64,000 nt of DNA. Origin: Actinocatenispora rupis. Its GTDB lineage: Bacteria; Actinomycetota; Actinomycetes; Mycobacteriales; Micromonosporaceae. Made by a program: the position numbers and the translations under genes. The stretch covers positions 124,001 through 188,000 of the forward strand of contig NZ_BOMB01000031.1 in NCBI RefSeq assembly GCF_016861975.1, in the 5' to 3' direction. Shown piece by piece: positions 18,480-57,951 of this stretch. The notes under the pieces were generated by a model. That model saw only the letters and a list, made by a program, of their open reading frames with translations. It was not told where the DNA came from and did no database searches. The stretch's first letter is position 1; every line of letters begins with the position of its first letter.

Positions 18480-19468
18480 CGATCCGGGACGTGGCGCAGC
18501 GGGCCGGCGTGTCGGTGTCGACCGCGTCCCGGGCACTGTCCGGCGCCCGCCCCGTCGGTACCGAGCTGACCACCCGGGTCACCGCCGCCGCCCGCGCCCT
18601 CGGGTACCGGCAGAACCGGCTCGCCAGCGCCCTGCGTACGCAGCGGACCGGGACCGTCGGCATGGTCGTGCCGCAGATCAGCAACCCGTTCTTCCCCGCC
18701 CTCGTCGAGGCGATCGAACGCAGCCTGTCCGGCAGCGGCCGGCAGCTCCTGCTCTGCGACGCGCAACGCGACCCCGCCGTCGAGGCGGTACGCCTGCAGG
18801 CGCTCGCCGACCGGCAGGTGGACGGGCTCATCGTGGCGCCGGTGTCCGCCGTGGCCAGTGCGGACGCGCTCGCGGCCGTCGCGGCCGAGGTCCCCGTCGT
18901 CCAGGTCGACCGGTACGTCACGGACGCCGACCTGGACTGGGTCGGCGTCGACGACGCCGCCGGGCTACGGCTGATCGCCGGTCACCTCGCCGACGTCGGC
19001 GCCCGCACCGTCGTACTGGTCAGCGCCGGGAGCGAGTCGTCCACCGGGCGCAGCCGGCTCGCCGGGTTCGGCCCCGCCGCCGCACGGCACCGGCTCACCA
19101 CCGCCGAGCCGCTGCTCGGCGAGTACGGGATCGACTGGGGGGTGCGCGCGGCGGACCTGCTGCGCGCGCGGGGGCCGCTGCCCGACGCGATCGTCGGCGG
19201 CAACGACGAGATCGCGCTCGGCGTCGTGCGGGGACTGCGCGCCGCCGGCGTACGGGTGCCCGACGACGTGCTGGTCACCGGCTTCGACGACGCCGGCTTC
19301 GCCGCGCTCGCCGACCCCGCGCTCACCACCGTCCGGCAGCCACACGCGCTCATCGCCGACGAGTGCGTACGGCTGCTCGACCTGGCGCGGGCCGGCGGCG
19401 AGCAGGCGCCCCGGCGCATCGCCCTCGCCCCGACCCTCGTCGTCCGCGCCTCCACCACCCGATCCTGA
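18470..19468 (+). CDS. LacI family transcriptional regulator
   Basis: This 332-residue protein has an N-terminal LacI helix-turn-helix (TIRDVAQRAGVSVSTASRALSG), a hinge helix (NRLASALRTQRT) and a periplasmic-binding-like effector domain. The GTG start overlaps the hydrolase stop. Being last in the ribokinase/hydrolase operon, it most likely responds to ribose or a nucleoside and binds the two CG-centred palindromes at 16588-16678. The 19 bases to the convergent glgP end show no clear terminator. Confidence 0.88.
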   Translation: MRVTIRDVAQRAGVSVSTASRALSGARPVGTELTTRVTAAARALGYRQNRLASALRTQRTGTVGMVVPQISNPFFPALVEAIERSLSGSGRQLLLCDAQRDPAVEAVRLQALADRQVDGLIVAPVSAVASADALAAVAAEVPVVQVDRYVTDADLDWVGVDDAAGLRLIAGHLADVGARTVVLVSAGSESSTGRSRLAGFGPAAARHRLTTAEPLLGEYGIDWGVRAADLLRARGPLPDAIVGGNDEIALGVVRGLRAAGVRVPDDVLVTGFDDAGFAALADPALTTVRQPHALIADECVRLLDLARAGGEQAPRRIALAPTLVVRASTTRS

Positions 19469-19487
19469 ACGCCCCGCGCCGCGCCGG

Positions 19488-22070
19488 TCAGCCCGGCAGC
19501 GGGTACGTGACCAGGCCGAGTTCGGCCGGGCTGGACAGCAGCGGATGCGTCGGCACGACCCGCACCGTGTACCCGAACGCGCCGGCGTGCGCGAGCGGCA
19601 CGTCCGCCTCGTACCGGAGGCGGCCGTCGACGCCGTCGCCGGTGAGCCGCATCGGCACGGTGTGGACGTCGCGCAGCTCGTCGGAGTCGCCCTCGGCGAC
19701 GCGGCCGGAGCACGCCTGTACCTCGACGTCGCCCGCGACGAGCCGACCCAGCCGTACTTCGGCGCGCAGTCGCAGCGTCGCGCCGAGCCGCGGGGTGGCG
19801 GCCTGCTCCTCGGCGCCGGACGACTCGACGTGTTCGACGGTGACCTCGCCCCACGACTCGGACACCCGCCGGGCGAACGCGGCCAGTTCGCGGCCGGGCG
19901 CGCCGCCGTCGGCGGACATCCGGCGGGACGCGGCGCCGGCGGGCAGGTACAGCCGCTGGACGTAGTCGGCGACCATCCGGCTGGCGAGTACGGCGGGGCC
20001 GAGCGTGCGGAGGGTGTGCCGCACCATGCCCACCCACCGCGCCGGTACGCCGGCCTGGTCCCGGTCGTAGAACAGCGGGACGACGTGGTTCTCCAGCAGC
20101 TCGTACAGCGCGGCGGCCTCCAGGTCGTCGCGCCGGTTCTCGTCGACGACGCCGGTGGCGGTGGGGATGGCCCAGCCGTTCTGCCCGTCGTACAGCTCGT
20201 CCCACCAGCCGTCGCGTACGGACAGGTTGAGGCCGCCGTTGAGCGCGGACTTCATCCCGGACGTACCGCAGGCTTCGAGCGGGCGCAGCGGGTTGTTGAG
20301 CCACACGTCGCAGCCGGCGACCAGGTGCCGCGCCAGCCCCATGTCGTAGTCCGGCAGGAACACGATCCGGCGCCGTACCCGGGGGTCGTCGGCGAACCAG
20401 ACGAGCTCCTGGATGAGCTTCTTGCCGCCCTCGTCGGCCGGGTGCGCCTTGCCCGCGACGAGGATCTGCACCGGCCGGTCGGTGGAGGTGAGCAGCCGTT
20501 CAAGCCGGCCGCGGTCGCGCAGCATCAGCGTCAGCCGCTTGTAGCTGGGCACCCGCCGGGCGAACCCGATGGTCAGTACGTCCGGGTCGAGCACCTCGTC
20601 GACCCAGCCCAGTTCGGCCTCGGTCGCGCCGCGGTGCGCCGCGGAGATCCGCAGCCGCCGCCGCGCCTCGGTGACCAGCCGCGCGCGCAGCTCACCGCGT
20701 ACGGACCAGAGGTCGACGTCGGGTGCCTTGCTGACCGCCGCGAACGCCGCGTCCGGCGCGGTGTGGTCGAGGTCGGCGAGTCCGGCCCGCTCGGCGAGTT
20801 CCAGCGACGGCCGGGCCAGCCACGTACGCCCGTGCACGCCGTTGGTGACCGACGTGATCGGCACCTCGTCCACGTCGAACCCGGGCCACAGCGACGAGAA
20901 CATCTCCCGGCTGACCGCCCCGTGCAGCCGGGACACCCCGTTCGCCCGCTGCGCCAGCCGCAGCCCCATGTGCGCCATGTTGAACACGCTCGGGTCCGCC
21001 TCGGCACCCAGCGCCACCACCCGCTCCACCGGTACTCCCGGGCTCGCGTTGTCGCCGCCGAAGAAGCGTTCGATGGTCTCCCGCGGGAACCGGTCGATCC
21101 CCGCCGGTACGGGCGTGTGCGTGGTGAAGACGGTGCCGGCGCGGACCACCCGCAGCGCGGCGTCGAAGTCGAGGCCGGTGTCGACGAGTTCGCGGATCCG
21201 TTCGATGCCGAGGAACCCGGCGTGCCCCTCGTTGGTGTGGTACACGTCCGGCGCCGGCGTCCCGGTACGCGCGCACCAGGCGCGGACCGCGCGCACCCCG
21301 CCGATGCCCAGGAGTACCTCCTGGAGGAGCCGGTGGTCCACACCCCCGCCGTACAGCCGGTCGGTGACGGCACGCTCGGCGGGCGTGTTGCTCTCCAGGT
21401 CGCTGTCGAGCAGCAGCAGCGTCACCCGGCCCACGTACGCCTGCCAGATCTGCGCCCGCAGCACCCGCCCCTCGGGCAGCCCGACGCGGATCTGCACCGG
21501 CGTCCCGTCCGCGTCGCGCAGCCGGGTCAACGGCAACCCGTGCGGATCCAGCGCCGGGTACTGCTCGGCCTGCCAGCCGTCCGGCGTCAGCCCCTGGCTG
21601 AAGTATCCGGAACGGTAGAGCAACCCCACCCCGAGCACCGGTACGCCCAGGTCGCTCGCCGCCTTCAGGTGATCCCCGGCCAGGATCCCCAACCCGCCCG
21701 AGTACTGCGGCAGCACCGCGGTCACGCCGAACTCGGGCGAGAAGTACGCCACCAGCCCGGGTACGTCACCGCCGAGCGTCTGGTACCAGCGCGGCTCGGT
21801 CAGGTACTGCCGCAGCTCCTGGTGGCGCTCGGCCAGCCGCCAGCGGAACTCCTCGTCGGCGGCCAGCTCGGCGAGCCGGTCCGCGGAGACCTCGCCGAGC
21901 AGCCGGACCGGGTCCTGCCCGCAGGCCCGCCACAGCGCCGGATCCACCGCCTCGAACAGGTCGAGGGTCGGCGGGTGCCAACACCAGTGCAGGTTGCCGA
22001 CCAGCTCGTCAAGGGCCGCCAGGGGTGCGGGCAGTGCCGCCCGCACCGTGAACCGTCGTAGCGCTCTCAC
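19488..22070 (-). CDS. glgP: Alpha-glucan phosphorylase
   Basis: This 860-residue GT35 enzyme is of the actinobacterial/archaeal branch that has an N-terminal DUF3417 domain (LVGNLHWCWHPPTLDLFEAV) before the phosphorylase core. The PLP-binding lysine is K607 in GTSGMKSALNGG. It releases glucose-1-phosphate from non-reducing ends of glycogen-like glucans. The start is GTG at 22070; no strong ribosome site is visible. It is convergent with the LacI gene and lies 102 bases downstream of the ROK gene on the same strand, so it may have its own promoter. It should act together with GlgX in glucan breakdown. Confidence 0.92.
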   Translation of the reverse strand: MRALRRFTVRAALPAPLAALDELVGNLHWCWHPPTLDLFEAVDPALWRACGQDPVRLLGEVSADRLAELAADEEFRWRLAERHQELRQYLTEPRWYQTLGGDVPGLVAYFSPEFGVTAVLPQYSGGLGILAGDHLKAASDLGVPVLGVGLLYRSGYFSQGLTPDGWQAEQYPALDPHGLPLTRLRDADGTPVQIRVGLPEGRVLRAQIWQAYVGRVTLLLLDSDLESNTPAERAVTDRLYGGGVDHRLLQEVLLGIGGVRAVRAWCARTGTPAPDVYHTNEGHAGFLGIERIRELVDTGLDFDAALRVVRAGTVFTTHTPVPAGIDRFPRETIERFFGGDNASPGVPVERVVALGAEADPSVFNMAHMGLRLAQRANGVSRLHGAVSREMFSSLWPGFDVDEVPITSVTNGVHGRTWLARPSLELAERAGLADLDHTAPDAAFAAVSKAPDVDLWSVRGELRARLVTEARRRLRISAAHRGATEAELGWVDEVLDPDVLTIGFARRVPSYKRLTLMLRDRGRLERLLTSTDRPVQILVAGKAHPADEGGKKLIQELVWFADDPRVRRRIVFLPDYDMGLARHLVAGCDVWLNNPLRPLEACGTSGMKSALNGGLNLSVRDGWWDELYDGQNGWAIPTATGVVDENRRDDLEAAALYELLENHVVPLFYDRDQAGVPARWVGMVRHTLRTLGPAVLASRMVADYVQRLYLPAGAASRRMSADGGAPGRELAAFARRVSESWGEVTVEHVESSGAEEQAATPRLGATLRLRAEVRLGRLVAGDVEVQACSGRVAEGDSDELRDVHTVPMRLTGDGVDGRLRYEADVPLAHAGAFGYTVRVVPTHPLLSSPAELGLVTYPLPG

Positions 22071-47397: not shown

Positions 47398-47419
47398 CTT
47401 CGGTTGGTACGCAAGCGGA

Positions 47420-47674
47420 TCAGCCGATGCGGCCCCGGCGTACCGCGTCGGTGAACGCGGCCCACGCGGCACCGTTCACGCTCAACACCGGCCCCCGCCG
47501 GTCCTTCGAATCCCGCACGTACCAGGTCGCCCCACGCTCAGCGACCTCCACGCACTGCCCGCCCTGCGATCCACTGCGGCTGCTCTTGCGCCACGCCAAC
47601 AGGTCGAACCCGACCTCGACGCAGTTACCGCCCTGGGTACTGCTGCGACTGCTCGTCCACCAGCTCACACTCAT
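47420..47674 (-). CDS. DUF397 protein with duplicated motif
   Basis: This 84-residue protein has two DUF397 modules. A partial first module (WWTSSRSSTQGGNCVEV) is followed by a complete one (WRKSSRSGSQGGQCVEVAERGATWYVRDSKD...AAWAAFTDAV). DUF397 proteins are small partners of XRE/Scr1-type regulators in actinomycetes and may act as antitoxin-like or signalling partners. The ATG at 47674 has GGAGAG upstream, and the gene is third in the XRE operon. Nearly 130 bases are almost identical to the upstream paralogue, so this is a recent tandem duplication. Confidence 0.87.
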   Translation of the reverse strand: MSVSWWTSSRSSTQGGNCVEVGFDLLAWRKSSRSGSQGGQCVEVAERGATWYVRDSKDRRGPVLSVNGAAWAAFTDAVRRGRIG

Positions 47675-47689
47675 AGCGCTCTCCTGTCC

Positions 47690-47956
47690 TCAGCCGAGGC
47701 GATTTCCTCGTACCGCGTCGGTGAACGCCGCCCACGCGGCGCCGGCCATACTCAACACCGGCCCCTGCCGGTCCTTCGAATCCCGCACGTACCAGGTCGC
47801 CCCACGCTCAGCGACCTCCGCGCACTGCCCGCCCTGGCCGGTGCTCCGGCTACTCGTACGCCAGTCGAGCGTGTCGACCGCGACCTCGATGCAATTCCCG
47901 CCCTGGCTGGTGCTGCGGCTGCTCTTCCACCATCTCAGATGCTCAGGGGCTCTCAT
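47690..47956 (-). CDS. DUF397 protein with duplicated motif
   Basis: This 88-residue paralogue of the preceding protein again has a partial (WWKSSRSTSQGGNCIEVAVD) and a complete DUF397 module (WRTSSRSTGQGGQCAEVAERGATWYVRDSKD). The ATG at 47956 lies inside the end of the XRE gene, 14 bases before its stop, with GGAGAG 4 bases upstream, so it is translationally coupled to the regulator. A TTG four codons upstream is a weaker alternative start. It is probably the direct partner of the XRE protein. Confidence 0.87.
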   Translation of the reverse strand: MRAPEHLRWWKSSRSTSQGGNCIEVAVDTLDWRTSSRSTGQGGQCAEVAERGATWYVRDSKDRQGPVLSMAGAAWAAFTDAVRGNRLG

Positions 47957-51733: not shown

Positions 51734-53347
51734 TCAGGCGCCCAGGTCCAGCACCCGGTCCGCGTACCGGAGGGCGGCCGGGTCGTGCGTCACCAGGATC
51801 GTCGTACGCCCGGCGGTCGCGGCCAGGACGTCCGCGAGCAGCCGGTCCGCGTCGTCGGCGGCGAGCCCCTCGGTCGGCTCGTCCAGCAGCAGTACGGGCG
51901 GGTCGGCGAGCAGGGCGCGAGCCAGCAGGACGCGCTGCCGCTGGCCGCCGGACAGGGCCGCGCCGTCCGTACCGACCGGGGTGTCGAGGCCGAGCACGTC
52001 GCCCAGCCCCACCCGGTCGAGTACGGCGCGCAGGTCGCCGTCGGTCGCGCCCGCCCGGCCGAGCCGCAGGTTCGCCGCGAGCGTCGTGTCGAACAGCCAC
52101 GCCTCCTCGCCGACCCCGCCGACCACCCGCCGCACGTCTGCCCCCGCGTACGCGTCGATCGGGTGGCCGGCGAGCCGCACGGTGCCGGCGGACGGCGCCA
52201 CGAACCGGCGGAGTACGGCGAGCAGGGTGCTCTTGCCGGAGCCGCTCGGCCCGGTCACCACCAGCCGGGTGCCCGCCGGTACGTCGACGGACAGGCCCGC
52301 CACGGCCGCCGCGCCACCCGCCCGGTACCGGACGGTCAGGTCGCGGACCTCGATGCGTACCGGACCGGTCGGGGCGGGCAGCGGCACCGCCGGCTCCGGT
52401 ACGGGTGGCGGCGCGGCCAGGACGGCGCGGACCCGGGCCAGCGCGGCGCGGGCGTCGGCGTACCGGCGGGCGGCGGCGGGCAGCGCCAGCGCCGGTTCGA
52501 GCGCCACCAGCGTCGTCAGCCCCACCACGGCCACCGCCGGCCCACCCACCGGCCCGGCCAGCACGGTCGCGGCGACGGCGGCGAGGCCCTGCACGGCGAG
52601 GCCGAACGCGGTGAGCAGCCCGGCGGTACGCGACTCGGCGCGTTCCCGGGCGGCCCGGTCGGCGTGCGCGGCGCCAGCGGTGGCGAGCGCGGCGCCGGTC
52701 GCGGAGTACGCGGCGAGCTCGGCGGCACCGTCGAGCAGGTCGGCCGCCGTCACCGCCACCGCCGTGTCGTCCACCGCCGCGGTACGTCGACGGTGCCGGG
52801 CGGCGAGCGCCGGCAGCAGTACCGCGGAGGTGAGGAGCGCCAGCGCCAGCGGCACCGCCGCGGGCGGGGCCAGCAGGGCGACCAGCAGCAGCCCGGCGCC
52901 GCCCGCGACCACCGCGCCCGCCGCCGGCACCGCGCAGCGCACCACCAGGTCCTGCACCGCCGCGGTGTCCGCGACCATCCGGTGCAGCAGCTCCGCGCGG
53001 CGCCACGCCGGCAGTCCACCGGGCGCCAGCGGCACCAGCCCCGCGTACACCCGGGCGCGCAGGTCGGCGAGCGCCCGCAGCGCCGCGCCGTGCCCGGTCA
53101 CCCGCTCCGCGTACCGGAGGGTGCCGCGCAGCAGCGCGAACGCGCGTACCCCGACGATCGCGACGGACAGCGCGGCGAGGCCCGGCCGTTCCGCGGCACG
53201 CGCCAGCAGCCACGCCGCGGTGGCGAGCAGCGCCGTACCGGCCAGGTCCGCGGCGGCGCCCGCCACCGCGGCGACCACCACCGGACGGCGCACCGTACGG
53301 ACCGGATCCGTTGCGGCGCAAGGCTTCTCGACCGCGGCCGTGGTCAT
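51734..53347 (-). CDS. cydC: ABC exporter subunit CydC
   Basis: This 537-residue half-transporter has six membrane helices (AAADLAGTALLATAAWLLARAAERPGL...FALLRGTLRYAERVTGHG is CydC-like) and a nucleotide-binding domain with Walker A GPSGSGKST, signature LSGGQRQRV and Walker B LLLDEPTEGL. With CydD it exports thiol compounds needed to assemble cytochrome bd. The ATG at 53347 overlaps the stop of the last upstream small frame (ATGA). The first 22 codons are part of the repeat unit that is tandemly amplified upstream of the gene. It is the last gene of cydABDC. Confidence 0.9.
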   Translation of the reverse strand: MTTAAVEKPCAATDPVRTVRRPVVVAAVAGAAADLAGTALLATAAWLLARAAERPGLAALSVAIVGVRAFALLRGTLRYAERVTGHGAALRALADLRARVYAGLVPLAPGGLPAWRRAELLHRMVADTAAVQDLVVRCAVPAAGAVVAGGAGLLLVALLAPPAAVPLALALLTSAVLLPALAARHRRRTAAVDDTAVAVTAADLLDGAAELAAYSATGAALATAGAAHADRAARERAESRTAGLLTAFGLAVQGLAAVAATVLAGPVGGPAVAVVGLTTLVALEPALALPAAARRYADARAALARVRAVLAAPPPVPEPAVPLPAPTGPVRIEVRDLTVRYRAGGAAAVAGLSVDVPAGTRLVVTGPSGSGKSTLLAVLRRFVAPSAGTVRLAGHPIDAYAGADVRRVVGGVGEEAWLFDTTLAANLRLGRAGATDGDLRAVLDRVGLGDVLGLDTPVGTDGAALSGGQRQRVLLARALLADPPVLLLDEPTEGLAADDADRLLADVLAATAGRTTILVTHDPAALRYADRVLDLGA

Positions 53348-53472
53348 GCCGGCACCAACGCTCGGGTGGCAGCGAGCGGGACAGCGCGGGCTGCGGCGAC
53401 CAGCGACGGACGGCGCACCGTACGAACCGGATCCGTTACGACGCAAGGCTTCTCGACCGTTGCTGTGGTCAT
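53344..53472 (-). CDS. Small frame between cydD and cydC (repeat copy nearest cydC)
   Basis: A 42-residue frame whose first 22 residues mimic the CydC N-terminus (MTTATVEKPCVVTDPV...) and whose last 20 mimic the CydD C-terminus (LVAAARAVPLAATRALVPA). It is joined to its neighbours by ATGA overlaps at both ends. It is probably a by-product of tandem duplication; translation would pass ribosomes on to cydC. Confidence 0.4.
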   Translation of the reverse strand: MTTATVEKPCVVTDPVRTVRRPSLVAAARAVPLAATRALVPA

Positions 53473-53720
53473 GCCGGCACCACCGCTCGGGCAGCAGCGA
53501 CCGGGACCGCACGGGCCGCGGCGACCATCGCCGGACGGCGCACCGTACGGACCGGATCCGTTACGGCGCAAAGGTTCCCGACCATGGCTTTGGTCATTCC
53601 GACACCACCTCGGGCGGGAGCGAGCGGGGCCGCCCGGGCCGCGGCGAACACCACCGGCCGCCCTACCTGACGAACCGGATCCGTTGCGGCGCAAGGATTA
53701 CCGACCATAGCTGTGGTCAT
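53469..53720 (-). CDS. Small frame between cydD and cydC (two fused repeat copies)
   Basis: An 83-residue frame formed by two repeat units fused in phase: one unit is 123 rather than 125 bases, so the internal stop is lost (residues 38-42 read GGVGM at the join). Each half starts like CydC and ends like CydD. ATGA overlaps link it to the frames on either side. Confidence 0.4.
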   Translation of the reverse strand: MTTAMVGNPCAATDPVRQVGRPVVFAAARAAPLAPARGGVGMTKAMVGNLCAVTDPVRTVRRPAMVAAARAVPVAAARAVVPA

Positions 53721-53845
53721 GCCGACACCATCACCCGGGCGGGAGCGAGCGGGACCGCGCGGGCCGCAGCGACCAGCGACGGACGATGCACCGTCCGAAC
53801 CTGATCCGTTGCGGCGCAAGGCTTCTCGACCGCGGCCGTGGTCAT
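53717..53845 (-). CDS. Small frame between cydD and cydC (repeat copy next to cydD)
   Basis: A 42-residue frame that begins MTTAAVEKPCAATDQV and ends LVAAARAVPLAPARVMVSA. Its ATG overlaps the cydD stop (ATGA), exactly as the ancestral cydD/cydC junction would. No independent function is suggested by the sequence. Confidence 0.4.
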   Translation of the reverse strand: MTTAAVEKPCAATDQVRTVHRPSLVAAARAVPLAPARVMVSA

Positions 53846-55755
53846 GCCGGCACCAACGCTCGGGCTGGAGCGAGCGGGACTGCGCGCGCTGCAGCGACCA
53901 GCGCCGGACGGTGCGCCACCGCCAGCACCGTACGGTCCGCGGCGAGCCGGCGGGTGGCCGCGAGTACCGCCGACTCGGTGGCGGGGTCGAGCCGCGCGGT
54001 GGGCTCGTCGAGCAGCAGCAGCGGCGCGTCCCGGCACAGCGCGCGGGCGAGCGCGACGCGTTGCCGCTGCCCGGCGGACAGCCCGTGGCCGTTCTCGCCG
54101 AGGACCGTGGCCGGCCCGTCCGGCAGCGCGGCGACCACCTCGGTGAGCGCCGCATCGCCGATGGCGCAACGGATCCGCGCATCGTCGGCGCCCGGCGCGC
54201 CCAGCCTGACGTTGTCCGCGAGCGTGCCGGCGAACAGTCGCGGCCGCTGCGGCACCCACCCGATCCGGGTACGCCACGCCGCGAGCGCCGCCCCGTCCGC
54301 GTCGGCGAGATCCGTACCGTCCAGCCACACCCGGCCCGCCGTCGGCCGCAGGAAACCCAGCGCCAGCGCCAGTACGGTGCTCTTGCCCGCGCCGCTCGGC
54401 CCGGTCAGCACCACCCGCTCCCCCACCGCCACGGTCAGGTCGAACCCGCACAGCGCCGGCACGTCCCGCCCCGGGTACCGCACCGTCACGCCCTCGAACC
54501 GCAGCAGCACCCGGCGCCGCCCCGACCCCGCCTCGCCCATCCCCGTCCGAAGCCGCGGATTCGCCTGCGGCGCAAGGGTTCCGGCCGCGACACCGGTCCC
54601 ACCGGTAGCCGCCGGCTCGCCTGCGCCGGCAGGTTCACCGGAGGCGGCGGGTTTGCCGGAGGCGGCAGGTTCACCGAAGGCGGCGGGTTCACCGGAGGCG
54701 GCGGGTTCACCGGAGGCGACGGGTTCACCGAAGGCGACCGGTTCACCGGAGGCGGCAGGTTCGCCGGTGACCGCGGGTTCGCCGGACGCGGCGGGTTTGC
54801 GGGTGGCGGCGCGGGCGGCGTCGAGTACGGCGAGGGCGTCGTCGGCGGCGGCGAGGCCGGGGGCGGCGGCGTGGAAGTGGGTGGCGAGCGCCCGCAGCGG
54901 CAGGTACGCCTGCGGCGCGAGCAGCAGCACGGTGAGCCCGGTGGTGAGGTCGAGCCGGCCGGCCAGCAGCCGCAGCCCGACCGGTACGGCGACGAGCGCG
55001 AGCGACAGCGCGGCGACGAGTTCGAGGGCGAGGGCGGTGAGGAACGCGACGCGCAGCGCGGACATGGTGGCGCGGCGGTGGTCGTCGGCGACGCGGCGCA
55101 GGCGTACGGCGTGGGTGTCGGCGCGGCCGAAGGCGCGCAGGGTGGGCAGGCCGAGGACGGTGTCGAGGAAGTGCCCGCCGAGTACGGACAGGCGGCGCCA
55201 CTGGCGGCGGGTGGCGGCGCGGGCGTGCCGGCCGGCGAGCGCGCCGAACAGCGGTACCAACGGCAGGGTCGCGGCGACGGTCAGCGCGGAGGCCGGATCG
55301 GCCCAGCAGAGCCGGACCAGCACGCAGACCGGTACGGCGGCGGCGAGCGCGACGGCGGGCTGGTGGTCCCGCAGGTACGGGGTGAGGCCGTCGACGCCGC
55401 GGTCGGCGAGCGTGACCAGTTCGCCGACGGGGCGCCCGGCGATCCAGCGCGGCCCGAGCGCCTGCGCCGCAGCGAGGATCCGGTACCGCAGCGCGGCGGT
55501 GGCCCGCGCCGCCGTACGCCCGGCCGACGCCTCGCGGCATCCGGCGAGGACGGCGCGGGCGACGGAGACGGCGGCGAGCGCGACGGCGAGCGGGAGTACC
55601 GCGGGGGATCGGGACAGGACCGCGACGATCAGCCGGGCGAGCAGGTCGAGCTGCCCGACCAGCAGGACGGCGAGGGCGACGGCGGTGACCCGACCCCAGC
55701 CGAGGCCGCGGCGTACCCCGGGCAGGGCGGTGAGTCGCTTTCCGTGGCGGCGCAT
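53842..55755 (-). CDS. cydD: ABC exporter subunit CydD
   Basis: This 637-residue half-transporter has an N-terminal membrane domain (ALGPRWIAGRPVGELVTLADRGVDGLTPYLRDHQP is CydD-like) and a nucleotide-binding domain with Walker A GPSGAGKST, signature LSAGQRQRVALARAL and Walker B LLLLDEPTARLD. A 66-residue low-complexity linker of hexapeptides (xPxAxG) separates the two and is unusual for the family. It works with CydC. The ATG at 55755 overlaps the cydB stop (TGATG), and the gene ends in the repeat array shared with cydC. Confidence 0.9.
   Translation of the reverse strand: MRRHGKRLTALPGVRRGLGWGRVTAVALAVLLVGQLDLLARLIVAVLSRSPAVLPLAVALAAVSVARAVLAGCREASAGRTAARATAALRYRILAAAQALGPRWIAGRPVGELVTLADRGVDGLTPYLRDHQPAVALAAAVPVCVLVRLCWADPASALTVAATLPLVPLFGALAGRHARAATRRQWRRLSVLGGHFLDTVLGLPTLRAFGRADTHAVRLRRVADDHRRATMSALRVAFLTALALELVAALSLALVAVPVGLRLLAGRLDLTTGLTVLLLAPQAYLPLRALATHFHAAAPGLAAADDALAVLDAARAATRKPAASGEPAVTGEPAASGEPVAFGEPVASGEPAASGEPAAFGEPAASGKPAASGEPAGAGEPAATGGTGVAAGTLAPQANPRLRTGMGEAGSGRRRVLLRFEGVTVRYPGRDVPALCGFDLTVAVGERVVLTGPSGAGKSTVLALALGFLRPTAGRVWLDGTDLADADGAALAAWRTRIGWVPQRPRLFAGTLADNVRLGAPGADDARIRCAIGDAALTEVVAALPDGPATVLGENGHGLSAGQRQRVALARALCRDAPLLLLDEPTARLDPATESAVLAATRRLAADRTVLAVAHRPALVAAARAVPLAPARALVPA
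54601..54798 (-). repeat. In-frame 18-bp minisatellite in the cydD linker
   Basis: Eleven 18-bp units (198 bp in total) encode hexapeptides of the form (E/K)P(A/V)(A/V/G)(S/T/F/A)G between the membrane and ATPase domains of CydD. Units are similar at the DNA level and all keep the frame, so copy number can vary without inactivating the protein. Confidence 0.9.
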
Positions 55756-56690
55756 CAGAAGAAGGCCACGGTGGCGTCGGTGACGGGTCGCCGGAACAGC
55801 CACCACAGCAGCCCCTGGTGTACGAGCACGACCGGCACCGCGGCCAGCAGTACGGTGCCGACGGCGGTGGAGTCGCCGGCGAGGCGGGCCAGGGTGGGCG
55901 CGGCGCAGCCGGCGACGGCGAGTACCGGCGCGGCGGCGGCCACCGCGGTCCCCACCACCGCGGTACGCCGGCGCCCGGTGGTCAGCGCGCGGCGGGCGGC
56001 GAGCAGCCCGGCCGGGGCGAGCAGGACGAGGGCGGCGGGCGGGGCGAGGTGCGCGCGTACCGCGGGCAGGGCCGGGGCGGCGCACGCCACGACGGCGGTC
56101 ACCACGGCGGCGGGCACGGTGAGCCGGTGCGCGAGCCGTACGGCGGCGTCGGCGGCCGCGGGCACCCGGACGGCGGTCACCGCGGCCCCGTGCGCCGCGA
56201 GTACCAGGACGAGGGCGGCACCGCAGGCGGGCGGGAACCAGGCCAGCAGCGGGTCGGTGAGCCCGGCGGCGGGCGGCAGGCCCAGCGCGAGGTCGCCCAG
56301 CAGCATGCCCCAGCAGAACGCGAAGACGAGGCTGCCGACGGCGTACGCGGACTCCCAGCCGGCGCGCCAGCGGGCCGAGTCGCGCCGGCCGCGCAGCCAG
56401 AGGCCCGCGTCGCGCAGCACCCAGGCGGCGAGACCGGGCACCACCGCCGGGTACGCCGCGGCGAGCACGTGCTCGGCGGCCGGGAACTCGCCCGCCAGCA
56501 GCCCGCCCGCGGCGACCAGCCACATCTCGGTGGCGAGGACGACCTGGCCGACGCCGGTGAGTACCCGGCGACGCGGCCAGCCGGGCGGGGCGAGTCGGTG
56601 CAGCAGGATCCCGGCGCCCAGGGCGTACCCGTCGAGCACGAACCAGCCGGCGAGCAGGAACACCAGCAGGGCGGACAGCGCAACGTCCAC
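55755..56690 (-). CDS. cydB: Cytochrome bd ubiquinol oxidase subunit II
   Basis: This protein of about 311 residues is a CydB subunit with about 8-9 helices. It begins ALLVFLLAGWFVLDGYALGAGIL, with the conserved LDGxxLG motif of CydB, and carries the GRRDSARW and WESAYAVGSLVFAFCWGMLLG segments. It partners CydA in cytochrome bd, a high-affinity terminal oxidase that reduces oxygen to water. The GTG at 56690 has AAGGAG 8 bases upstream; an in-frame GTG at 56699 would overlap that site. It is a little shorter than E. coli CydB (379), as in other actinobacteria. Confidence 0.88.
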   Translation of the reverse strand: MDVALSALLVFLLAGWFVLDGYALGAGILLHRLAPPGWPRRRVLTGVGQVVLATEMWLVAAGGLLAGEFPAAEHVLAAAYPAVVPGLAAWVLRDAGLWLRGRRDSARWRAGWESAYAVGSLVFAFCWGMLLGDLALGLPPAAGLTDPLLAWFPPACGAALVLVLAAHGAAVTAVRVPAAADAAVRLAHRLTVPAAVVTAVVACAAPALPAVRAHLAPPAALVLLAPAGLLAARRALTTGRRRTAVVGTAVAAAAPVLAVAGCAAPTLARLAGDSTAVGTVLLAAVPVVLVHQGLLWWLFRRPVTDATVAFF

Positions 56691-56703
56691 TGTGGACACT
56701 CCT

Positions 56704-57927
56704 TCAGACGACGGCGGGTACGACAGGGGCGGGCTCGTCGGCCGCGAGCGTGCGGCCGAGCGCCATCCGGCGCGGGCCACGGCGCGCGAGCGTCAGCAGT
56801 ACGCACCAGTTCGTGACGGCGAGGCCGACGACGAGCGTGCCGAACAGCGCCAGCGACACCGCCACCTGCCCGGTGGACAGCGAGGTCGCGTCCGCCGTAC
56901 GCAGCACGCCGTAGATCACCCACGGCTGCCGGCCGACCTCGCGTACCAGCCAGCCGCACACCACCGCGACGAACGGCAGCGGGATCCACCACGTCATCAC
57001 CCGCAGCAGGATCCGCCGGCGTACCACCCACCGCCGGATCAGGAACGGCAGCAGGAACAACCCCAGATACGTCGAGTACTCCCCGAACTGCTGCATGATC
57101 GAGAAGGGCACCCCGAGCCAACCCGGCGGCCGGTCCGCCACCGGCGCCCCGCCCTTCGACGGCATGATCGCGTCGACCTTGCCCGGCTGGTCCAGCTTGA
57201 GGTAGTCGAGCTGCGCCCACCCGAACATGAACGTCAGGAACGCGCCGACCAGCCCCACCACCACGCCGATCCGCCACGACCGCAGGAACACGTCGGTGTC
57301 GTCCGGTCGCTTCCGCAGGTGCCAGGCGCTGATCCCGGCCACCACCATCCCGCCCAGCATCAGCGCCGCCGGCAGCAGGTGCCGCAACGCGCCGACCGCC
57401 TCCGGGTTGGCGAACAGCGCGCCCAAGTCGGTGATCCGCGCCTCGCCGCCCCGCATGACGTACCCGACGGGGTGCTGCAGGAAGCCGTTGGCCACCAGTA
57501 CGAAGACCGCCGACGCGTACGCGGTGATCGTGACCAGGTAGAACGACGCGAGGTGCACGACCTTCGGCAGGGTGCCCCAACCGAAGATCCAGATGCCCAG
57601 GAACGTCGCCTCGGCGAAGAACGCGACCATCGTCTCCATCGCCAGCGGGGCGCCGAACACCTGCCCGGCGACCCGGTTCACCCCGGTCCAGGCGAGCCCG
57701 AACTGGAACTCCATCACCAGCCCGGTGACGATGCCGAGCCCGTAGTTCACCACGTACAGCTGGCCCCAGTAGCGGGTCATGGCGAGGTGCACGGCGCGGC
57801 CGGTCAGCACGTACCGCGTCTGCATGACGGCGATCAGCGGGGTCAGGCCGAGGGTGAGCACGACGAACAGGAAGTGCACGTTCGCGGTGAGCGCGAACTG
57901 CACCCGGGCCAGGTCGACGGCGGTCAC
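56704..57927 (-). CDS. cydA: Cytochrome bd ubiquinol oxidase subunit I
   Basis: This 407-residue subunit has the N-terminal DLARVQFALTANVHFLF segment, in which H18 is the expected heme b595 ligand, and the quinol-loop/heme region ending GWLVREVGRQPWVIYGVLRTADA. It is shorter than E. coli (522) or mycobacterial CydA because the periplasmic Q-loop is short. It oxidises menaquinol. The GTG at 57927 has GGAGG upstream; the GTG at 57939 would leave it without one. It heads the cydABDC operon, and two palindromes for the divergent PadR lie just upstream. Confidence 0.9.
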   Translation of the reverse strand: MTAVDLARVQFALTANVHFLFVVLTLGLTPLIAVMQTRYVLTGRAVHLAMTRYWGQLYVVNYGLGIVTGLVMEFQFGLAWTGVNRVAGQVFGAPLAMETMVAFFAEATFLGIWIFGWGTLPKVVHLASFYLVTITAYASAVFVLVANGFLQHPVGYVMRGGEARITDLGALFANPEAVGALRHLLPAALMLGGMVVAGISAWHLRKRPDDTDVFLRSWRIGVVVGLVGAFLTFMFGWAQLDYLKLDQPGKVDAIMPSKGGAPVADRPPGWLGVPFSIMQQFGEYSTYLGLFLLPFLIRRWVVRRRILLRVMTWWIPLPFVAVVCGWLVREVGRQPWVIYGVLRTADATSLSTGQVAVSLALFGTLVVGLAVTNWCVLLTLARRGPRRMALGRTLAADEPAPVVPAVV

Positions 57928-57951
57928 GGACGCCTCCACTGCGTTGACTCT

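Follow-up and report, generated by a model that had tools for sequence, protein, structure and literature searches.

Mycobacterial interspersed repetitive units (MIRUs), reportedly the subject of Supply et al. in 1997, are the closest described system in architecture to the repeat array considered here, which occupies the junction of cydD and cydC in a 64,000-nucleotide stretch of bacterial DNA (the window; G000:C31:124001-188000, from a draft assembly of 7.83 Mb in 81 contigs with 96.8% completeness). The host is apparently an actinobacterium of high GC content. A MIRU carries a small open reading frame (ORF) coupled to its neighbour with a -4 spacing, that is a 4-base overlap, and appears to be mobile (PMC12548453), and the units measure 46-101 bp and are found at 41 loci and in tandem copies (PMC3914561). 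At some MIRU loci the number of copies varies among isolates. The functions proposed for MIRU-VNTRs (variable number tandem repeats) include differential translation within operons, and repeat length has been linked to the expression of one downstream mycobacterial gene (PMC2734929). On coupling itself, the literature states that reinitiation strongly requires genes to overlap or to be separated by a very short gap, that the last 15 nt of the upstream gene can suffice for it (PMC10666635), and that the loss per termination-reinitiation step is a quantity for future measurement (PMC6728339). We consider it most likely, with a probability of about 0.7, that the cyd array arose by in-place tandem duplication of the cydD-cydC overlap, has since diverged and is tolerated.

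The cydA, cydB, cydD and cydC genes all lie on the minus strand, as identified from matches to the Pfam families PF01654, PF02322, PF00664 and PF00005 together with gene order, from which the D/C naming of the two exporter halves is also taken. Where cydD meets cydC, Tandem Repeats Finder (TRF) reports an array with a period of 125, 5.2 copies, 82% matches and a score of 844, the top score in the list of arrays for this genome. An initial annotation of the window had counted five copies here; the repeat array is real, and its content is better described as four inserted units between two half units, which are the real gene ends. The minus strand carries ATGA at 53845, 53720, 53597, 53472 and 53347, giving spacings of 125, 123, 125 and 125 bp, and the TGA of cydD sits within the first of these. 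Mechanical tracing of stop-start overlaps from cydD leads through micro-frames of 42, 83 and 42 codons to the ATG of cydC, and so, together with TRF, confirms the ATGA-coupled frames of these lengths that the annotation had placed within tandem units at this junction. A Pfam search of the three micro-frames matched no family, and no Shine-Dalgarno-like site is visible before their starts or that of cydC. The four inserted units diverge pairwise by ~14-21%, with amino-acid replacements present in every copy.

Much of this chain can be understood from unit length. A unit of 125 bp is 2 mod 3, and consequently the cydD-derived TGA at its end falls in frame and the overlap is remade; the 83-codon frame exists because one unit is 123 bp (0 mod 3), so that the ATGA at 53597 is read through in another frame. 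This suggests a simple rule, whereby a unit of 2 mod 3 would remake the stop-start overlap with each copy and one of 0 mod 3 would read in frame into the next unit, cydC remaining reachable in either case. Since units in two of the three length classes mod 3 keep the path to cydC if they are stop-free, the chain is not as remarkable as it appears, and the array may be tolerated precisely because its units either regenerate the overlap or read through. Ribosomes leaving cydD would then terminate and restart through the three micro-frames before reaching cydC, with at most weak selection keeping this path open; both the translation of the chain and its near-neutrality are things that we infer.

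The origin of the unit can be read from the genes on either side of it. Unit fronts are identical to the first 60 nt of cydC at 55, 47, 52 and 54 of 60 positions, and unit tails match the cydD end at 56/65, 49/63, 55/65 and 58/65, which, with the seam described below, bears out the earlier observation that every unit is a fusion of the cydC 5' end with the cydD 3' end. When the cydD end was aligned with the cydC start in the arrangement of a single-copy junction and 220 offsets were tried, the array's own offset of 125 gave 18 of 21 identities, tied with offset 137 as the best of the 220. A seam of this kind is what unequal exchange or slippage at a short imperfect repeat would be expected to leave behind. 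In this case the event would have been an exchange or slippage between the similar cydD 3' and cydC 5' stretches, 125 bp apart, by which a segment across the ATGA overlap was presumably duplicated in tandem and in place; the duplicate would subsequently have multiplied to four inserted units, which then diverged.

The array is absent from three genomes of the same genus (G001, G002 and G003), to whose cydC the host gene is 74% identical. In each of them cydD and cydC meet in a plain single stop-start overlap, with either of two adjacent ATGs possible as the cydC start of G002, and TRF found no array at any of the three junctions. Beyond these, a direct ATGA or GTGA overlap was found at 23 of 29 loci holding a related genome's best cydC-like match, the script leaving six unresolved; outside the genus such matches are only 38-48% identical and may in part be other exporters of that family. 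The host genome has a second cydDC-like pair, which likewise meets in a plain ATGA overlap. The cydD tails within the genus differ in both sequence and length, and this part of the gene would appear to be a tolerant zone. The array unit has no second full-length copy elsewhere in the assembly, where a search returned only the array itself and three matches of 28-43 bp with E values up to 0.001.

Set beside MIRUs, the cyd array shares a small ORF with a 4-base overlap to its neighbours, a position at a gene junction and a tandem arrangement, the 83-residue frame representing two fused units. It departs from them in three respects: its units of 123 and 125 bp lie outside the MIRU range of 46-101 bp, the unit is confined to one place in the assembly whereas MIRUs are dispersed at many loci, and it is built from the cydC front and the cydD tail whereas MIRUs, as apparent mobile insertions, are foreign to the genes that they separate. 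On these three grounds the array is no MIRU, but if translated it would work like a MIRU array. The initial annotation had known of no described case, which is incorrect as regards the architecture, for which MIRUs provide a precedent (PMC12548453); our search of the open-access literature, within the portions of text that it reached, found no array described at a cyd junction. Compared with ordinary ATGA coupling, each cyd junction is a normal 4-base overlap of the kind seen at the 23 of 29 cydC-like loci, to which the array adds three serial stop-start overlaps and one ATGA passed out of frame.

The unbroken frames had been taken in the initial annotation as pointing to function. In the consensus unit, however, 4 of 369 single-base changes give a stop, so stops are rare in any case. 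We simulated neutral change by placing substitutions on the consensus unit, at the observed number per copy and assuming a star history, and all copies remained stop-free in 0.56 of runs with the observed spectrum and in 0.57 with a flat one. When the chain had to reach cydC exactly, it was kept in 0.32 of the runs limited to substitutions and in 0.26-0.27 of those with one indel added; with 40 bases of slack allowed the proportion was 0.50-0.60. By this simulation the absence of stops is no more than chance gives, and we rejected stop-free copies as evidence of selection. A drift towards AT was considered separately as a sign of decay and does not distinguish, with GC>AT changes at 33/380 sites and AT>GC at 10/120.

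Several observations nonetheless weigh against a chain that is merely tolerated. All four inserted units keep their ATGA, as only ~0.18 of neutral runs do; the sole indel left the chain intact; the array has lasted long enough for 14-21% divergence; and the star history from a consensus unit is itself an assumption of the simulation. Pooled over all pairs of copies, the ratio of nonsynonymous to synonymous differences (pN/pS) comes to 0.63 in frame, and the two alternative frames give 1.03 and 1.15. This would be consistent with weakly constrained frames, though the pairs are not independent and one row is a composite of the real gene ends. For the six pairs among the four units alone the values are 0.75, 0.83, 0.54, 0.61, 1.02 and 0.79. 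In the comparison of synonymous and nonsynonymous differences that had been suggested as a check, the in-frame ratio is therefore lower than the values of about 1 out of frame, but the excess of third-position changes is not significant (19 observed; mean 15.9, P 0.21, and mean 16.6, P 0.28). Finally, unit 3 folds better as RNA than most of its shuffles (z -2.21). The data do not require constraint on the chain, and some weak constraint may exist.

The remaining folding z scores are 0.55, 1.02 and 0.66 for units 1, 2 and 4 and -1.26 for the cydC start, unremarkable overall, and RNA structure was considered and rejected, the units having no consistent stability. A search for promoter and terminator patterns found none, and against Rfam no family reached its gathering score, two matches below E 1 lying far under theirs. 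A mechanical search of a 1.664-Mb sample returned 22 rows of at least three small coupled frames, several of them one chain read from another start, which implies that coupled chains as such are not rare by chance. At least three coupled starts were present in only two of 124 tandem arrays scanned, namely the cyd array and one in locus L227. We counted 38 tandem arrays of period >=40 in 1.264 Mb of the host genome, and G002 has 25 of them in 0.4 Mb; diverged tandem arrays are common in both sampled genomes.

CydD and CydC form one heterodimer, and diverged copies of a repeat should recombine less readily. Both points bear on a proposal of the initial annotation, namely that the array is a selected translational attenuator which sets the CydD:CydC ratio, its copy number changing by recombination to act as a slow switch. 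Steps that lower CydC would have no obvious use where the two proteins belong to a single complex, the divergence of the copies argues against the switch, and the unbroken frames are not improbable under neutrality. In favour of an attenuator, the anatomy fits, and the literature indicates that reinitiation is overlap-dependent with 15 nt sufficing, so that short frames could relay ribosomes (PMC10666635), and that the repeat length of one mycobacterial locus is linked to expression of its gene (PMC2734929). We regard this function as unlikely. An in-frame pN/pS below 1 could also be taken to mean that the micro-frames make functional peptides, but there is no Pfam match to them, replacements occur in every copy, the ratio spans 0.54-1.02 among the four units alone and the parent segments are the ends of other proteins, all of which makes this very hard to credit. 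A draft genome of 81 contigs might likewise be suspected of containing an assembly artefact at this point; since the inserted units differ by ~14-21%, and the array is interior to a 224,877-bp contig, such an error is highly improbable. A larger claim, which we consider a long shot, is that the cyd array represents the birth of a MIRU-type repeat by in-place duplication of an ATGA junction, copy number then becoming a heritable and adjustable count of termination-reinitiation steps between two subunits. On that claim, each 2 mod 3 duplicate would rebuild its own stop-start overlap and hence cost little. Apart from it, the array supplies a concrete route to coupled micro-ORF repeats such as MIRUs that would need no mobile element, together with a length rule (2 or 0 mod 3) that would account for their low cost, and it offers a natural series for measuring the expression lost per termination-reinitiation step.

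The unit may also carry the cause of its own amplification. Short matches of the array elsewhere in the genome, and a core common to other arrays, trace to a 25-bp palindrome of the type GGATCCGTTGCG-S-CGCAACGGATCC, which is present in every unit and within the 5' coding end of cydC. A search of the host genome with its half-site pattern gave 497 matches versus 9 for the reversed pattern, counted over both strands such that full palindromes can count twice. The three genomes of the same genus have fewer, the numbers being 127, 103 and 93 (reversed 14, 11 and 9), and in 37 others they are mostly near background, a few being mildly raised and those of G019 (115 vs 17), G021 (135 vs 12) and G007 (61 vs 10) clearly so. 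From 33 sites not belonging to the cyd array we built a symmetric 25-bp profile with a threshold of 14, and it gave 167 matches in a 1.264-Mb host sample and 0 at >=14 in the same sample reversed. It is possible that this palindrome promotes tandem amplification around itself, the cyd array being one product, and besides its abundance this would be in line with the best scores at the cydC starts of G001 (15.1) and G002 (21.4) and with its presence in 6 of 49 mostly intergenic tandem arrays, where 2.09 are expected (P 0.018). However, the six include the cyd array that prompted the test, the other 43 lack the palindrome and the cydC start of G003 scores 10.8, under the threshold. None of the 25 G002 arrays of period >=40 holds it either, though with 14 profile matches present just 0.07 overlaps are expected there. 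We thus find a causal role for the palindrome doubtful, and in-place duplication at the seam, followed by divergence and tolerance, remains the explanation that we prefer.

The palindrome is of some interest in its own right. By a home-made gene caller, 96 of the 167 profile matches fall in coding sequence, and per base the palindrome favours intergenic space, convergent most and divergent least. That every cyd unit holds one short dispersed palindrome is a likeness to the repetitive extragenic palindromes (REPs) and to REPINs (REP doublets forming hairpins). The differences are the proportion of matches in called coding sequence and the lack of any match in the host draft (96.8% complete) to PF01797, the family of the REP-associated tyrosine transposase (RAYT) type, which was matched in 4 of 25 genomes searched, with 0 matches in G000. 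Extra conservation of the palindrome core among the copies was considered and rejected (4/72 versus 47/426 changes, P 0.21). As separate observations, an intergenic array at L135 18962-19299 (89 bp x 3.8 copies) contains AACGGATCCG-like half-sites below the profile threshold, and a second dispersed palindrome, TGTCCACNGTGGACA, found for example at L129 19603-19907, occurs at 708 places in the host genome versus 8 for the control, with elevated counts in many genomes across the family and order. The latter contains what we take to be a DnaA-box-like sequence.

Table 1. Positions within the window of the cyd genes, the tandem array and the elements inside it
Feature	Positions	Strand	Evidence or remark
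cydA, cytochrome bd subunit I	56704..57939	-	PF01654 E=2.7e-103; ORF
cydB, cytochrome bd subunit II	55755..56699	-	PF02322 E=1.2e-34; ORF; start codon uncertain, ORF could extend to 56780
cydD, ABC exporter half	53842..55755	-	PF00664, PF00005; start approximate
cydC, ABC exporter half, 537 aa	51734..53347	-	PF00005 E=1.8e-29
Tandem array, units 125/123/125/125 bp; outer half units belong to cydD (3' end) and cydC (5' end)	53266..53911	-	TRF, ATGA spacing
Micro-frame 1, 42 aa	53717..53845	-	ATGA overlap at both ends
Micro-frame 2, 83 aa, two units fused	53469..53720	-	first of the two units 2 bases shorter
Micro-frame 3, 42 aa	53344..53472	-	ends within the cydC ATGA
Seam repeat, copy in cydD 3' end	53891..53911	-	18/21 identical to 53268-53288
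Seam repeat, copy in cydC 5' end	53268..53288	-	18/21 identical to 53891-53911
Palindrome, unit 1	53802..53826	-	profile score 28.1
Palindrome, unit 2	53677..53701	-	profile score 29.2
Palindrome, unit 3	53554..53578	-	profile score 27.2
Palindrome, unit 4	53429..53453	-	profile score 23.6
Palindrome inside cydC 5' coding end	53304..53328	-	profile score 31.2

A different set of coupled micro-ORFs, of about 80 bp, is dispersed within the host's taxonomic family. The first case lies in G002, at ~19337-19500 on the minus strand of L227, where two 80-bp units, each with a 27-codon frame and ATGA on both sides, stand between a gene ending RTEGPR and a gene starting MSAATD. Matches to the stretch formed by the two units number 12 in G000, 23 in G001, 25 in G002 and 23 in G003 (20 candidates were scored in each), with weaker matches in six other genomes of the family among the 41 genomes searched. 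An exact motif of its start was matched by 74 of the 150 family genomes searched and, in a set of 197 genomes taken from the class, by 12, the host being one of the 12; the reversed control gave 0 in both sets. At least one distinct unit was obtained by script motif from 44 of 50 fetched loci (L235-L284), the other six being repeats of a locus already counted or misfits to the motif; the loci were picked by similarity and include related genomes, so these counts are not independent. Frames of at most 40 codons are present in 46 of the 51 distinct units, and every one of these frames overlaps the start that follows it by 4 bases, the overlap at their own start belonging to the search motif and thus not being an independent result. 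Two of the remaining five have longer coupled frames (43 and 45 codons) and three are uncoupled. The upstream frame is open for at least 20 codons in 46 of the 51.

Most frames in this family are of 26-27 codons, and the copies stand singly or in tandem at operon junctions, with three tandem spacings of 80 bp and three of 77 bp, each 2 mod 3; a 78-bp spacing in one G002 array is an exception to the length rule. Copies from the host genus have an AAGGAGG-like site ahead of the next start. The cyd array has in common with these repeats the ATGA overlaps at unit ends, tandem copies and spacings of 2 mod 3, but its sequence is another, it is not dispersed and it has no visible AAGGAGG-like site; the cyd unit is not a member of the 80-bp family. 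With MIRUs the family shares a coupled small ORF, dispersal, tandem copies and a length below 101 bp, a likeness in architecture. Our search of the open-access literature found no MIRU-like family described outside mycobacteria in the text that was accessible, and if the 80-bp family is real then MIRU-like repeats would not be confined to that group.

Two smaller repeats elsewhere in the window may be mentioned. Within cydD, an 18-bp repeat at 54627-54797 (9.5 copies) encodes a GEPAAS-like linker, in place of which the cydD of relatives has other low-complexity repeats. On the minus strand at 47400-47941, a 270-bp duplication has given two adjacent frames with WRKSSRSGSQGGQCVEVA-type motifs, which we take to resemble DUF397, beside a gene that is presumably helix-turn-helix-like.

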